From Candidatus Schmidhempelia bombi str. Bimp (GTDB lineage Bacteria; Pseudomonadota; Gammaproteobacteria; Enterobacterales; Orbaceae): 64,000 bases of DNA. The notes under the pieces are model-generated. The model worked only from the letters and a program-made list of their open reading frames with translations. It ran no database searches and had not been told where the DNA came from. Each line of letters begins with the position of its first letter. Position 1 is the first letter of the stretch. Made by a program: the position numbers and the translations under genes. Positions 54,194 to 59,109 of this stretch are shown piece by piece. Where the stretch lies: NCBI RefSeq assembly GCF_000471645.3, contig NZ_AWGA01000011.1, positions 1 to 64,000 of the forward strand. The letters run 5' to 3'.

Positions 54194-54208
54194 TTATAAG
54201 TACATCTA

Positions 54209-54475
54209 TTGGATATATCTTCCGCAAGTCTTGTTCAACGGTATAAAAGAGATCAGTTTCCATCAGATATTGTTGTGCGTTGTATGGCTGAGACAGGGGC
54301 TACATTAGAATGGCTAGCTAATGGTGACGGTGAATTTTTACCAAGTGAGCCAAAGCAAAAAGAAACTGTTCTAACTGATGAAATAATAGAAAAGTTGGAG
54401 AGACTGGGGAGCCTAAAAGAAAAGGGCTTAATAACCGATCAAGAGTTTAATGAATTAAAAGCAAAGCTGATTTAA
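54209..54475 (+). pseudogene. Truncated phage CI-like repressor fused to a SHOCT domain
   Basis: The open frame starts without a proper start codon (TTG at 54209, no ribosome binding site; a TAA lies in frame at 54197). The first part, LDISSASLVQRYKRDQFPSDIVVRCMAETGATLEWLANGDG, matches the end of the helix-turn-helix domain of CI-type phage repressors. The N-terminal 25 or so residues are missing. After a short linker comes a SHOCT domain (EKLERLGSLKEKGLITDQEFNELKAKLI), a short oligomerisation tail. The break directly after the acetyltransferase gene looks like a deletion or excision junction. It is probably not translated as a working repressor. Confidence 0.7.
54368..54475 (+). repeat. SHOCT-coding repeat, copy 1
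   Basis: About 108 bases coding the linker end and SHOCT tail of the repressor fragment. Copies 2 and 3 share long identical runs with it, for example AAAAGAAAAGGGCTTAATAA. Confidence 0.8.
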
Positions 54476-54503
54476 GAAAAATTAAAGAATAAGAGATAAA
54501 AAT

Positions 54504-54720
54504 ATGAAAAAATTATATAAAATAGTTCTATCGCTTATAATCTGCTTGTTATTTTCTTCAATGAGTTATGCCAGTCAAAACTGTTGATAAAAGGACGTGT
54601 GAAAATAGTGATTTTGTATCATTATTCCAAGATAACGATCTTCAGTTTGTTTATCGGTATACATTTAATGATAAGAAAAAGATGTATGTATCTTTTTACA
54701 TTGACGATGTTTGTAATTAA
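54504..54720 (+). pseudogene. Decayed copy of the small exported protein gene at 54881-55300
   Basis: An ATG at 54504 opens a signal peptide (MKKLYKIVLSLIICLLFSSM then SYA) that runs into TGA at 54585. In another frame, 54583-54720, the sequence reads a C-terminal end of type DNDLQFVYRYTFNDKK followed by YIDDVC. This closely resembles the last 40 residues of the intact gene at 54881-55300 (ENDLRFLYRYQFSDKK and SIDDMC). The middle of the gene is missing and the frames do not join, so it is a deleted, frameshifted paralogue. Confidence 0.75.
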
Positions 54721-54745
54721 AAATCCAAAATCAAAAAAGAAAAGG

Positions 54746-54850
54746 ATTCTATCTGATGAATGAATAGAAAAGTTGGAGCGACTGGAAATCTTAAAAGAAA
54801 AGGGCTTAATAACCGATCGAGAGTTTAATGAATTAAAGGCGAAGTTGATT
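54746..54850 (+). repeat. SHOCT-coding repeat, copy 2
   Basis: It aligns along its full length with copy 1 (both code EKLER-x5-LKEKGLITD-x-EFNELKAKLI), but has an in-frame TGA at 54761-54763 where copy 1 has ATA. It lies directly before the intact exported-protein gene at 54881. Confidence 0.8.
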
Positions 54851-54880
54851 TATTCACTAATAATTAAAGGAAACAACATC

Positions 54881-55300
54881 ATGAAAAAAACATTTAAACA
54901 AGTTTTATTGGTAGTAAGTTGTATGGTGATCCCATTTGGTAGTTATGCTAATACTAATCAAGATTTAGCAGCCAAAAATCTTGCCGAAGGTGCAAAAAGA
55001 AACCTATTAAGTATTTACGGAAAATTCCCAATAAAATTAGATAACGTATCACAACTTACCGATATAACATCAAGTAAACAAAATATCATTTATGACTACA
55101 ATGTTACAATGGAAAGTGGTTTATTAACTTCTGAAATTCTTGCTGAGGCACTAAAAGAGAGTCAAAAAGATAGCGTTTGCTCAGTCCCTGTTTTTGTTCA
55201 AACATTTAAAGAAAATGATTTACGATTCTTATACCGTTATCAATTTTCAGATAAAAAGATCATTCCTGTTACTTTATCTATTGATGATATGTGTGATTAA
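54881..55300 (+). CDS. Small exported protein of unknown function
   Basis: The product has 139 residues with a signal peptide (about 1-23, ending GSYA). I do not recognise the family. The mature protein includes the segments NLAEGAKRNLLSIYGKFPIKLD and VCSVPVFVQTFKENDLRFLYRYQF. Two Cys (about 113 and 138) may form a disulfide. AAAGGA lies about 10 bp before the ATG. The open frame extends upstream through SHOCT copy 2 without a stop after 54764, but that stretch starts at a frame break. The start at 54881 with signal peptide is preferred. A decayed paralogue lies upstream. Its place within the integrative element suggests phage-borne cargo. Confidence 0.7.
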   Translation: MKKTFKQVLLVVSCMVIPFGSYANTNQDLAAKNLAEGAKRNLLSIYGKFPIKLDNVSQLTDITSSKQNIIYDYNVTMESGLLTSEILAEALKESQKDSVCSVPVFVQTFKENDLRFLYRYQFSDKKIIPVTLSIDDMCD

Positions 55301-55378
55301 AATAATTTTAAGAAGATTATTTTGATTAAAAGTTAAATATTGAATGTTATAAATTATAAATAATTAAGTGGGGTAAGG

Positions 55379-55897
55379 ATGGAAGGAAAATTAATATTTG
55401 CATATATCAGCGCAAATAAAGAATTTTTAATTCATGTTGTCCATTATATTCGGCAAGATGATAAATATATTCAAGGCATAAATATAATAGATGGTAAAAG
55501 TGGGCAATTTAGAACGTATCGTAAGGATCGAATAATTGCTAAATTTAATACCGAAAGTGAAGCCAAATTATATTCACTTGCCGATAATCTAGATCATGCT
55601 ATTAATGTTTGGGCAACAACTAATCCACGCTTACAAAGTTCATCAACCTCTTTTAATATATTTGATATTCACTTCACAGGCTTTAGACAAGCTGATAAAG
55701 AACGTTTAATCAAATTGGCAGAAGAAAAAGAATTAACTGTCCGCCAAAGCGTAACCTTAAACCTGCAATTACTCTGTGTTGGTTATAACGCAAGCATCAA
55801 AAAAATTGAAAAATCCCAAAAAATGGGAATCAACATCATGAATGAAAGCGACTTCTTAAACTTTTTAGAAACAGGTGAGATATTGTTAGGGGAGTGA
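55379..55897 (+). CDS. WYL-like plus BRCT-like domain protein of the integrative element
   Basis: The 172-residue product appears to join two small domains. Residues about 1-60 (FAYISANKEFLIHVVHYI, GINIIDGKSGQFRTYRKDRI) resemble a WYL domain, a ligand-sensing fold. Residues about 93-170 (IFDIHFTGFRQADKERLIKL, QLLCVGYNASIKKIEKSQKM, ESDFLNFLETGEI) resemble a BRCT domain, with the typical FTGF start, LVxG-like middle and SExxFLxxLExG end. Related WYL-BRCT proteins, as I recall, occur near the integrase and repressor in P2/HP1-like prophages. That context fits here. The start ATG follows GGGGTAAGG. The assignments are from pattern memory. Confidence 0.65.
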   Translation: MEGKLIFAYISANKEFLIHVVHYIRQDDKYIQGINIIDGKSGQFRTYRKDRIIAKFNTESEAKLYSLADNLDHAINVWATTNPRLQSSSTSFNIFDIHFTGFRQADKERLIKLAEEKELTVRQSVTLNLQLLCVGYNASIKKIEKSQKMGINIMNESDFLNFLETGEILLGE

Positions 55898-55944
55898 TTA
55901 AAGAAGTTTTGTCTAATAATCGGTGGAAAATTTAAATAACAGGC

Positions 55945-56011
55945 AAACTTAAAAGAAAAGGGTGCCATAACTGATCAAGTGTTTAATGTATTAAAGGCTA
56001 AATTGATTTGA
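55945..56011 (+). repeat. SHOCT-coding repeat, copy 3 (degenerate)
   Basis: About 67 bases align with copies 1 and 2 (CTTAAAAGAAAAGGG, then ATAACTGATCAAGTGTTTAATG, ending AAATTGATTTGA at the same frame position). It holds several substitutions that alter the SHOCT residues, and no start codon. It lies 25 bases before the nucleotidyltransferase gene. Confidence 0.7.
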
Positions 56012-56036
56012 GAAACAAGAATGGGAAATAAATTGA

Positions 56037-56639
56037 ATGAAGGTTTATTCTGATTGTTTGAAAAATGATATAGATAAATTATCACCTCAAGAAATAGCTG
56101 AAAAAATTTATCTTATTTATAATTCTTATGTTTTTAGGGGGAAAGAAGATCTGCAATATGCCATTTATAAACTTATAAGTGATAAATTCAATATTCCCAT
56201 AACCTCAATTCAGTTATGCGGTTCAGGTAAGACAGGCTATAGTTACTATAAGTCAGAACCATTTGACCCAATAGAGTCTGATCTGGATATAGCTATAATT
56301 AGTTCGAGTTTGTTTAATTTTTATCTGGAAAAATCTTTACTAGACTCAGAAGGACTACAAAATACTTATTTTAAAAAACGTAATAATAAAAAGTCATACA
56401 TGTCTTATTTATCTAAGGGGTGGCTACGACCTGATTTTATGCCAGATATACCTTTGAAGACAGATTGGTTTACTTTTTTTGGCTCTATGTCGAATAATTA
56501 TACCATGCACTTTGCAAAAATAAATGCAGGTATTTTTTTATCTGAAATGATGTTTAATTATCAACAGAAATCAATTGTTGATTTTTATAGAAAAACGAAA
56601 CAGTTTACTTTGGATGCAGATTTAGCAATAAATAATTAG
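56037..56639 (+). CDS. Polymerase-beta-type nucleotidyltransferase, first gene of a two-gene module
   Basis: A 200-residue protein with a nucleotidyltransferase fold signature: the GS element is CGSGKTGYSY (Gly62, Ser63), and after an insert of about 11 residues comes the acidic pair SDLDIAII (Asp82 and Asp84). Further conserved-looking segments are WLRPDFMPD (129-137) and KINAGIFLSEMMF (161-173). No other domain is present, so its target is unknown. Such enzymes may transfer a nucleotide to RNA or protein or make a nucleotide signal. The next gene starts 14 bp after its stop. A G+C-poor composition and the surrounding phage genes point to transferred DNA. The ribosome binding site is weak. 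Confidence 0.75.
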   Translation: MKVYSDCLKNDIDKLSPQEIAEKIYLIYNSYVFRGKEDLQYAIYKLISDKFNIPITSIQLCGSGKTGYSYYKSEPFDPIESDLDIAIISSSLFNFYLEKSLLDSEGLQNTYFKKRNNKKSYMSYLSKGWLRPDFMPDIPLKTDWFTFFGSMSNNYTMHFAKINAGIFLSEMMFNYQQKSIVDFYRKTKQFTLDADLAINN

Positions 56640-56653
56640 TGAATGAGGAAAAT

Positions 56654-57733
56654 ATGAATAGCCTTCAATATAAAGTTAGATCAGTTAGCCTGTTAAATTA
56701 CATAAATGAAGTTATGGCGGATAGATATATTTTAGATGCATATTTTCAAAGAAATTTAGTTTGGCGAGATGTGCATAATAGAGATTTTATTGAAACAATT
56801 CTTTTAGGGTTTCCATTTCCCCAAATTTTCATATCTAAAGGGAAAATTGATGTTGAAAAAATGGCAACAATATCATGCATTGTAGATGGACAGCAAAGAA
56901 CAAATGCCATTTTAAAATTCATTAGAAATGAATTCGCTGTGAAAAATAAATATTTTAATGAATTATCTCCGGACGAAAAAAATGATTTTTTTAAATATGA
57001 AATAGCATTGATAGAGTTAGACCTGGAAAATGATGATCCTAAAGTTAAGGACATTTTTCAACGGATTAATAGAACATCGAATTCATTAACAACTATAGAA
57101 AAATTAGCTTCAGAATATTCTACATCAGAGTTTCTATTAGTTGCCAGATTATTATGTAGTTCAATAGATATAAATAGAAAGTTGATTGACGATGAAGGAG
57201 GGGAATATTCTGATTTTAAAGAGGATCCGAATATACCTGAATCTTTTTATACTTGGGCAAATACAAAAAAAGTAAAAGCGTTTCAACGATTGATTAACAA
57301 TAAAAAGATATATACAGCTATGGACATACAAAGAAAAGTTCATTTGATGCATGTGCTTAATTTAATGTCTACTTATCTATATTCATTTTTTAATCGTAAT
57401 GAAAGAAGTTTTCTAGCATTAGAGGAGCTTAATGTTAACTTTGATAAAAAAGATGAACTTGTTAATAAATTTGAGGAAACAGCAAATATTATATTAAAAA
57501 TAAAACTCGATAATTTTTGGTTTAGAAAAGCAAATATTTTTTCATTGATAATAGCATTAGCAACTACTAATCTTAACGGTATAGTTGTTGAAAAATTGGA
57601 AGAAAATTTAAATAATTTTGCTTTGAAGCCTAATGATGAATATAAATTGGCAGCAACTGAGGCTGTTAATAACAAAAAAGAAAGGTTGCTTAGGCATAAT
57701 GAAATTATAAGATTGATCAATAATTCTAGGTAA
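56654..57733 (+). CDS. DUF262 (DGQQR-type, GmrSD-N-like) protein, second gene of the module
   Basis: The protein has 359 residues from the ATG at 56654, which has GAGG about 6 bp upstream; a GTG at 56639 overlapping the previous stop is the alternative. The N-terminal region carries the DUF262 pattern YFQRNLVWRD, then FIETILLGFPFPQIFI, then VDGQQRT (about 84-90). The DGQQR motif is the ParB/Srx-like NTPase site seen in GmrS, SspE and related proteins. The usual DUF1524 HNH nuclease half is absent: the C-terminal 200 residues are helical with no visible H-N-H. It ends 3 bp before the integrase. It probably works with the nucleotidyltransferase. A defence role is inference. Confidence 0.8.
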   Translation: MNSLQYKVRSVSLLNYINEVMADRYILDAYFQRNLVWRDVHNRDFIETILLGFPFPQIFISKGKIDVEKMATISCIVDGQQRTNAILKFIRNEFAVKNKYFNELSPDEKNDFFKYEIALIELDLENDDPKVKDIFQRINRTSNSLTTIEKLASEYSTSEFLLVARLLCSSIDINRKLIDDEGGEYSDFKEDPNIPESFYTWANTKKVKAFQRLINNKKIYTAMDIQRKVHLMHVLNLMSTYLYSFFNRNERSFLALEELNVNFDKKDELVNKFEETANIILKIKLDNFWFRKANIFSLIIALATTNLNGIVVEKLEENLNNFALKPNDEYKLAATEAVNNKKERLLRHNEIIRLINNSR

Positions 57734-57736
57734 ATT

Positions 57737-58732
57737 ATGTCTATTCGTAAGAATGGTAATAAATGGTTATTTGAAAAATACCTTGAAGGTGGTAGACGTA
57801 TTCGTAAGACGTTTGCCACCAAAGGCGAAGCGTTAGCTTACGAAAATTATTTAGAAGAGCAAACTAACCAAAAGCCTTGGTTGGGTGAAAAGATAGATCG
57901 CAGACGTTTATCAGATTTGATTAATACTTGGTATTCATTACACGGGCAAACGCTTAAAGACGGTGAAAAACGCCTAAAAGCCATGTTATTTGCTGATGAT
58001 TGTATAGGTCATCCACTTGCTACCGATTTCACGGCCAAACAGTTTACTAATTATCGTCAAAAGCGTATTGATGGTGAAATATTTAGAACAGATCGAATTA
58101 AAAATGTTGCCCCTCGAACCATGAACCTTGAGTTAACTTATTTTAAAGCAATGTTTAATGAGTTGATTAGGTTAGGGGAGTGGCAACATAACAATCCACT
58201 TGAACGAATACGTCCATTTAAAACCGATGAGCAAGAAATGGCTTATCTAACAAAAGAACAAATTAATGACTTACTCCTATCATGTGAGCAAAGTACGGCT
58301 AAAGACTTAGTTATTATCGTTAAAATCTGTTTAGCAACAGGAGCAAGGTGGAGCGAAGCCGAAAGCCTAAAAGGCACACAAGTTAAAGATGGGAAAATCA
58401 CCTATATCAACACAAAAGGTAAACGCAATCGAACCATTCCAATTAGCGACAAACTCTTTAACGAAATTCCCAAAAAGAATGGTAACCTATTTACACCATG
58501 TTATTCAGCGTTCCGCTCAGCAATCGATCGTGCAGCAATAGAACTACCCGAACGACAATTAACCCACGTATTACGCCATACCTTCGCCAGCCATTTTATG
58601 ATGAATGGTGGTAACATTTTAGTTTTACAAAAAATACTCGGCCACACAGATATCAAAATGACCATGCGATATGCACACTTTGCGCCTGATCACTTTGAAG
58701 ATGCGGTAAGGTTGAATCCGTTGAACAATTAA
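57737..58732 (+). CDS. int: P2/HP1-type tyrosine integrase
   Basis: A 331-residue tyrosine recombinase. The N-terminal arm-binding part is MSIRKNGNKWLFEKYLEGGR. The catalytic residues are visible: Arg204 (TGARWSE), His277 and Arg280 (HVLRHTFASHF), His303 (LGHT), and Tyr312 (MRYAHFAP). The sequence resembles P2 and HP1 integrases along its whole length, including the end DAVRLNPL. All active-site residues are intact, so it may be functional. In P2-like phages int lies next to the immunity repressor and attP follows int. Here the repressor is at 54209, so an att site is expected in 58733-59109. It begins 3 bp after the DUF262 gene. Confidence 0.93.
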   Translation: MSIRKNGNKWLFEKYLEGGRRIRKTFATKGEALAYENYLEEQTNQKPWLGEKIDRRRLSDLINTWYSLHGQTLKDGEKRLKAMLFADDCIGHPLATDFTAKQFTNYRQKRIDGEIFRTDRIKNVAPRTMNLELTYFKAMFNELIRLGEWQHNNPLERIRPFKTDEQEMAYLTKEQINDLLLSCEQSTAKDLVIIVKICLATGARWSEAESLKGTQVKDGKITYINTKGKRNRTIPISDKLFNEIPKKNGNLFTPCYSAFRSAIDRAAIELPERQLTHVLRHTFASHFMMNGGNILVLQKILGHTDIKMTMRYAHFAPDHFEDAVRLNPLNN

Positions 58733-58739
58733 AAGGAAA

Positions 58740-58844
58740 ATTTTATTTTGTAATATCGGCTGGATGAAGAAGTATGAAGGACAAACACAAGATAAGACTA
58801 AGACATATTTACAATGGCATAGAGATAACGTATTTAAACGATAA
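58740..58844 (+). pseudogene. Possible fragment of a small cargo gene after the integrase
   Basis: Frame 58740-58844 reads ILFCNIGWMKKYEGQTQDKT, then KTYLQWHRDNVFKR and a stop. AAAAGGA lies just before, but no ATG, GTG or TTG is present at the expected start. The CNIGWMKKYEGQ start looks like the beginning of a known hypothetical protein type, with the middle deleted. The family match is from memory and weak. Confidence 0.35.
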
Positions 58845-59109
58845 TTTAGTGGCGATAAAATGGCTGTTGACTATATCCTTATATAGCTAAATGTGTTTAT
58901 ATAGGTATTGTTAACCGTTTGATTTAATTATAAGTTATTGATTTTAAATGCTACTTTAAAGAATTGTATTTCGCCTATAACAAATAAGTGGTTGTATCAT
59001 AGACCTGTCATCTATCATTGTTATCATCATCACAATGATAGATGGTTTTGGTCTTTAATTTAACTTAGATATATTGGATTGATTAAGTAAAGTCTTTTTT
59101 AGTGCTAAT
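58845..59109. other. Right flank of the integrative element, with a hairpin
   Basis: With the fragment before it, this makes 377 bases without a complete gene. A perfect 13 bp hairpin (59009-59021 against 59032-59044) lies downstream of ydiK on the minus strand, but no T run follows. This is where attR or attP of a P2-type element would be expected. Comparing it with the left junction near 54200 I found only an 8-base match (TTATAAGT), too short to mean anything. No tRNA gene is visible. Confidence 0.4.

Follow-up and report, generated by a model that had tools for sequence, protein, structure and literature searches.

Prophage defence hotspots are known, and in Vibrionaceae the K139-like P2-related prophages carry one between the cI repressor and the integrase (PMC9122126). 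On how successive blocks of cargo enter such places, the available text of this P2 hotspot paper defers the recombination route to later work, and the cos-end recombination that it proposes concerns E. coli hotspots located beside cos. Propionibacterium phage E6 possesses a second repressor-cro pair, for which its authors suggest complex immunity (PMC5831693), and in the tandem prophages of Mycobacterium abscessus two phages with unrelated repressors lie side by side (PMC9934374). The SHOCT domain (PF09851) is described as a short C-terminal domain present on many different partners, and phage repressors are not mentioned (0 matches) in the available text of the family paper (PMC3581485).

The locus described here is encoded in the window, i.e. 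the whole stretch of 64,000 nucleotides from Candidatus Schmidhempelia bombi str. Bimp (Orbaceae) that was analysed. The Orbaceae slot resembles the Vibrionaceae hotspot in its position, in the P2-related phage that carries it and in its variable cargo, which includes known defence genes; because a hotspot at this position has been published (PMC9122126), the slot itself is of a known kind. However, the host family is another one, and the available text of that paper describes neither tail scars, nor head/tail swaps, nor repressor arrays. Phage E6 (PMC5831693) carries a complete second switch, whereas the Orbaceae prophages have co-directional repressors with swapped heads and shared tails. 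The tandem prophages of M. abscessus (PMC9934374) are the configuration that the stacking model presented below needs, but they result from site-specific integration, and no deletion or cargo stacking is described in the accessible part of that report. SHOCT is a protein domain in PMC3581485, whereas in Orbaceae it is the coding DNA that appears to serve as a border of rearrangement. A literature search, covering largely abstracts and few subscription papers, found neither repressor arrays with shared tails nor SHOCT scars, a result that leaves their absence unproven. In Orbaceae, the joints themselves are readable, at several stages of decay.

We consider it quite probable that the element derives from a P2-like Orbaceae prophage with a cargo slot, of which it is a remnant, and that its headless SHOCT copies are the 3' ends of other phages' repressors, brought in with the cargo located behind them and joined by illegitimate recombination. 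The features are as follows (coordinates in the window, strand, description):

54194..59109, no strand, whole inserted element; approximate outer limits, from the GNAT gene to the AI-2E-type transporter gene
54209..54475, +, phage CI-type repressor gene, 3' part with cut head, linker and SHOCT tail (PF07022, PF09851)
54357..54475, +, SHOCT copy 1 (linker and tail); direct repeat and genome match
54504..54720, +, broken exported-protein gene A; 84-88% DNA identity to the intact gene of prophage G027
54735..54852, +, SHOCT copy 2, headless repressor tail in the interval between genes A and B; 85-87% to copy 1
54881..55300, +, intact exported-protein gene B; 40% amino-acid identity to A-type genes of relatives
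55379..55897, +, BRCT-domain gene; PF00533 just over cut-off, phrog_2561 (annotated DNA ligase) 1.5e-37
55939..56011, +, SHOCT copy 3, headless tail in the interval between the BRCT gene and the possible nucleotidyltransferase gene; weaker similarity from about 55907
56037..56639, +, possible nucleotidyltransferase gene; 92% amino-acid identity to the gene of prophage L172
56654..57733, +, DUF262/GmrSD_N gene; PF03235 1.5e-18, PADLOC NsnA 5.8e-21, N-terminal part
57737..58732, +, phage integrase gene, far wall of the slot (PF24624 and PF00589)

This prophage remnant of about 4.9 kb, with the GNAT gene on one side and the transporter gene on the other, retains just the slot and walls of its prophage, in the order repressor fragment, gene A, copy 2, gene B, BRCT gene, copy 3, possible nucleotidyltransferase gene, DUF262/GmrSD_N gene and integrase. 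The empty site is found in the sister genome G001, where the flank matches are 138 bp apart as against 4950 bp in the window; a tRNA attachment site was looked for, and no tRNA gene is present in the window. The repressor fragment matches profile positions 23-63 of 65 of PF07022 (46.1 bits), the first 22 being absent, as well as SHOCT PF09851 (32.3 bits), and both matches exceed the curated cut-off. It shares 78% amino-acid identity with Gilliamella records, in line with the window belonging to the family of Gilliamella (Orbaceae); whole repressor genes in relatives encode about 118 aa. Because part of the DNA-binding head is gone, the window repressor, as it stands, is unlikely to be an active immunity protein. 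Two other places in the same genome (G000, of which the window is contig C19) carry related sequences, namely a second repressor-integrase locus whose integrase is broken by a stop (C45, L151), and a short contig with a stop-containing tail fragment upstream of a SHOCT-bearing gene (C109, L156).

Among the cargo genes, gene A lacks about 196 bp that are present mid-gene in G027, and has a stop shortly past the signal peptide. Gene B has no match in PHROGs or NCBIfam. Searches of Pfam, PADLOC, PHROGs and NCBIfam gave no nucleotidyltransferase family match for 56037-56639, although a stretch resembling the GS/DxD motif of nucleotidyltransferases can be made out. According to PADLOC, part of the DUF262 gene resembles NsnA; of the N-terminal and C-terminal domains of GmrSD type IV restriction, Pfam lists only GmrSD_N for this gene.

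The first-pass annotation had reported three SHOCT-coding copies, the first of which ends the repressor fragment and precedes the broken exported-protein gene, and both points are borne out. Indeed (i) direct repeats are present at 54357-54474, 54735-54852 and 55893-56010 (86% and 60% identical, ungapped), (ii) the 119-nt copy 1 matches its own genome with E values of 5e-57, 1.2e-35 (87%) and 2.5e-10 (82% over 60 nt), and at no place other than these three in the 2.23 Mb and 131 contigs, and (iii) the local alignment scores of the copies are 160 and 65, far over the maximum of 26 for 766 control segments of the window. Copies 2 and 3 had been called non-coding. Copy 3 is an open fragment which has no start and whose frame is cut by an upstream stop; in copy 2 the SHOCT frame is interrupted by a TGA, and this copy is likely non-coding, short of certain because a frame from TTG 54773 runs open into the exported-protein gene.

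Local tandem duplication of a unit composed of SHOCT tail and exported gene could have made copies 1 and 2, with copy 3 as a further duplicate and subsequent decay. We regard this as unlikely, even though order and orientation are the same and the exported genes belong to one family. The closest relative of copy 2 is copy 1, in the same locus (85%; the G027 tail reaches 79%), so a local copy or later homogenisation would also fit. However, the divergence is unequal: tails 1 and 2 agree at 101 of 119 positions (85%), while gene B shares 53-54% DNA identity with the A-type genes of G027, L166, L168 and L169 and 58% with the remnant of gene A, the exported genes being 42-46% alike at third positions. 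The identity of the repeats relative to the flanking DNA, for which a comparison had been suggested, is therefore above the expectation for local duplication, and local tandem duplication as the whole story was rejected. Moreover, gene A resembles the G027 gene instead (84-88%), the core of copy 3 is nearer to tails of other phages (87-88% to G027 and L169) than to copy 1 (77%) or copy 2 (80%), and copy 3 is common to the window and L172. Duplication of copies 1 and 2 could hold only given later homogenisation of the tails.

The reading as imported repressor ends draws on the related Orbaceae P2-like prophages, in which a repressor (CI head and SHOCT tail) is followed by the slot and then by the integrase. 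The slot is empty in 15 of 51 scored prophage loci, with the integrase 19-24 bp past the repressor, and filled in the other 36, where it holds 442-4089 bp. These loci with both walls comprise 20 loci (the window among them), 30 of 31 viral loci and G027; some prophages are counted twice, as G009/L157 and G015/L159 have identical repressors. Slots of G012, G033, G004, G029 and other fragment loci (no full repressor or integrase) and of L167 (no integrase in reach) were left unscored; L179-L183 and L257 are repeat fetches of the contigs of L171, L172, L166, L169, L168 and L172, and L258-L261 are outside the analysis. The cargo varies, with different gene sets in 16 clade-A loci. PADLOC matches in the cargo of relatives include bSEFIR (L166), AbiD (G027) and ATPase-Toprim (G021a), 4 of 10 cargo proteins having no PADLOC match, and the cargo is probably composed in part of defence genes. 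The P2-like genes of L172 include a replication-nicking protein (phrog_91, 6e-231) and Cox (phrog_575), the latter also encoded in L157.

Two further slot genes were observed. A recurring gene of 185-209 aa (L144:6317-6904, L158:6389-6958, L156:835-1464; similar in L082, L148, L155, L162 and L165) encodes a bPH_3 domain (tested in L144) and ends in a SHOCT domain, while its N-terminal stretch is similar to the repressor tail and may derive from a repressor-tail seam. In L167:6372-7856, a single open frame of 494 aa matches both BRCT and exported-protein models and is an apparent cargo fusion.

Alignment with related elements revealed different cargo at the same seams and several arrangements instead of a single ancestral one. 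The joint of copy 3, between the BRCT stop codon and the possible nucleotidyltransferase gene, recurs in L172 (IMGVR_UViG_2854127928_000001); by this comparison, copy 3 is an older scar, which both prophages have together with this pair of cargo genes. Between the window and L172, identity is 81-92% in the BRCT gene, 75% over the seam, 89-99% in the nucleotidyltransferase gene and early DUF262, and 83-92% from there on, in late DUF262 and up to the end of the integrase. At third positions it is 88% for the nucleotidyltransferase, 89% for DUF262, 73% for the integrase and 78% for BRCT. The contrast of nucleotidyltransferase plus DUF262 with the integrase (Fisher p 4e-9, from rounded percentages) suggests that the cargo block behind seam 3 has its own history. 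The seam itself is 69-75% alike in the two prophages and the flanking genes 84-93%, which is more divergence than shared descent at one neutral rate would give. L173 is 98.1% identical to L172 at the repressor and upstream, 96.8% in BRCT and 93.8% in the integrase, and has a different gene after BRCT, where no scar was detected.

Other joints are shared in the same manner. The junction of gene A with the repressor linker is common to the window, G027 and L166, with a shared linker start of about 26 bp, beyond which G027 and L166 continue with BRCT and the window with the full tail and gene B. The slots of L162 (two) and L164 contain composite scars in which an integrase head is joined to a repressor tail: (i) integrase nt 1-95 and repressor nt 242-267 with a 9-bp overlap, (ii) integrase nt 1-118, some 20 bp and then a 49-nt tail, and (iii) integrase nt 22-143 adjoining a 46-nt tail. 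A scar made of an integrase head and a BRCT tail is common to G021a and G027, and a 35-nt tail piece is present in the slots of G015 and L159. In all, 8 of the 36 filled slots are scarred (window, G021a, G027, G015, L159, L162, L164 and L172), a count that leaves out matches in the coding bPH_3-SHOCT gene (G032, L158, L165 and part of G015, L159 and L162) and a 41-nt repressor-start match in L161. Given this proportion of detectable scars, stacking may often leave none or take another route. Among the related prophages searched, no donor with repressor, nucleotidyltransferase, DUF262 and integrase alone was found.

The repeats had initially been interpreted, tentatively, as homology seams for cargo. 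They do behave as recombination seams at the 3' end of the repressor; rather than a pre-existing homology used for insertion, they look like leftover repressor 3' ends joined at variable points, in one relative across the 9-bp microhomology. At the sequence level, shared scars with differing cargo beside them, composite integrase-head/repressor-tail scars and head/tail swaps (see below) are all present. Our inference covers the encounter of two phages in tandem or by co-infection, the sequence of events, a defence role of the cargo, a homologous step and immunity. Two related phages would meet as tandem prophages or within one infected cell; illegitimate recombination would then fuse the repressor tail of one phage to the end of the other phage's cargo, or to its integrase head, with loss of the intervening DNA and retention of both cargoes. 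Repeated tails could afterwards serve for homologous exchange, by which heads would be swapped and tails kept alike.

Comparison of intact repressors indicates that the SHOCT-tail border recombines in whole genes too. Among 1128 pairs of 49 distinct repressors, 90 differ in head versus tail identity (Fisher p < 1e-4), the tail being more similar in 80 and the head in 10. This set was obtained from 57 repressors by removal of 8 identical rows; the repressors of G009 and G015, which duplicate those of L157 and L159, were also removed, and pairs with fewer than 90 head or 60 tail sites are omitted (120 tail sites in the array comparison below). Since pairs are non-independent and a faster evolution of heads is possible, we rely mainly on the reciprocal cases. 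Thus, G027 and L166 share 100% of the head and 78% of the tail, whereas L166 shares 69% of the head and 99% of the tail with L171 and L173. Identical heads (100%) are also found in G022b/G039b (tail 82%), in the second repressor of L159/L160 (tail 76%; 196 identical nt shared) and in the fourth repressor of L157/L161 (tail 83%), where the 214 identical nt extend from two bases before the start codon to the linker. The remainder of the loci is 72-93% (L157/L161) and 65-78% (L159/L160) alike.

Tandem arrays of whole repressors are present in three cases, all in one bacterial family: G009 (= L157) encodes four co-directional repressors, G015 (= L159) three and G026 three with one broken. Different-head pairs at the same locus (n=10) have heads 58-69% and tails 90-97% identical; for different heads at different loci (n=212) the values are 50-70% and 56-95% (median 75), and for the same head type at different loci (n=27) 80-100% and 58-93% (median 79). 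With identity ranges differing in this way within and across loci, the tail sequence tracks the locus more than the head, third codon positions included. The near identity of the tail proteins within an array could instead be due to protein-level selection, e.g. for mixed oligomers, and not to recombination. We hold this to be very improbable: full-length tails within arrays are 78-94% alike at third codon positions, as against 32-55% for different heads, so that synonymous sites of array tails are unsaturated, identical heads occur with different tails in other phages, and a role of SHOCT as an oligomerisation domain was tested by the describers of the family and found no support (PMC3581485). 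Such selection may act additionally on array tails.

These arrays also raise the question of whether the window was once a whole-repressor array like that of G009, from which heads were deleted and into which cargo entered later. The existence of arrays in three related prophages speaks for such a history, but none was found in the window's own repressor clade (11 rows), and in L172 too copy 3 is headless and flanked by this cargo, so that we give it little credence. The import of repressor 3' ends with their cargo remains the preferred reading for the window.

The arrays were further compared with predicted operators, i.e. palindromic repeats upstream of the first repressor, which differ by head type. 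The e-type motif ACCKNNWMGGT is present in 5/5 e loci (with 2-3 exact sites, or 3 if one mismatch is tolerated), the b-type CGNNNTGCGTT in 3/3 b loci, the d-type ACACNNTNTGGTT in 2/2 d loci (3 and 1 exact sites) and the f-type TCCGNNTCGGA three times in the single f locus; the a-type occurs twice in L157 and the h-type in 2/2 loci scanned, both h loci also carrying one e-type site. These counts concern 16 early regions, an earlier scan having covered 24 regions with a partly different motif set. Since the motifs were derived from these same regions, the within-type matches arise by construction; the informative part is the zero counts in other regions, together with an expectation of at most 0.0009 per region after shuffling. 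No motif was recovered from the early regions for heads c and g, clade-A early regions gave no operator sites in the 24-region scan, and the region upstream of the first repressor of G026 is unlike other early regions.

The 34.5 kb surrounding the G009 array contain two a sites and one isolated e site, but none of the b, d, f or h types. All sites in the 36 kb surrounding the G015 array are e-type, three of them clustered and one isolated. Clustered predicted operators in the two array prophages are thus of the first head's type only. Three exact sites per locus were found for b in L158 and in L160, for d in L161 and for f in L162. As no site of these types occurs around the two arrays, the predicted targets of the extra heads b, d and f are in other phages, and none is predicted in the prophage that carries the array. 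Extra whole repressors may give immunity to other phages. We are evenly divided over a broader proposal, in which the SHOCT-coding segment would be a constant border for swapping and stacking heads and defence cargo, and prophages with 3-4 repressors would form an immunity bank: the first head would govern its own prophage, the others, some of them promoterless heads captured recently from other phages, would silence the operators of competitors, and the headless tails of the window would be fossils of the same process. If arrays act as proposed, a temperate phage would widen its superinfection immunity to several competitors by collecting DNA-binding heads of about 200 bp, and the array would be a simple heritable record of rivals.

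Outside the SHOCT-tailed repressors, G284, from the same order, encodes three tandem full-size CI-type genes with non-SHOCT tails beside an integrase (L262:3433-5318). The array claim was not extended to this locus, since the tail exceeds the head in 1/3 pairs (78 vs 58%; 56/65 and 54/59 in the other two). In addition, L199, L208, L233, L264 and L265 encode single proteins of about 280-320 aa in which two CI-type head matches, or three in some of the proteins, follow one another; these are possibly fused head arrays in other phages.
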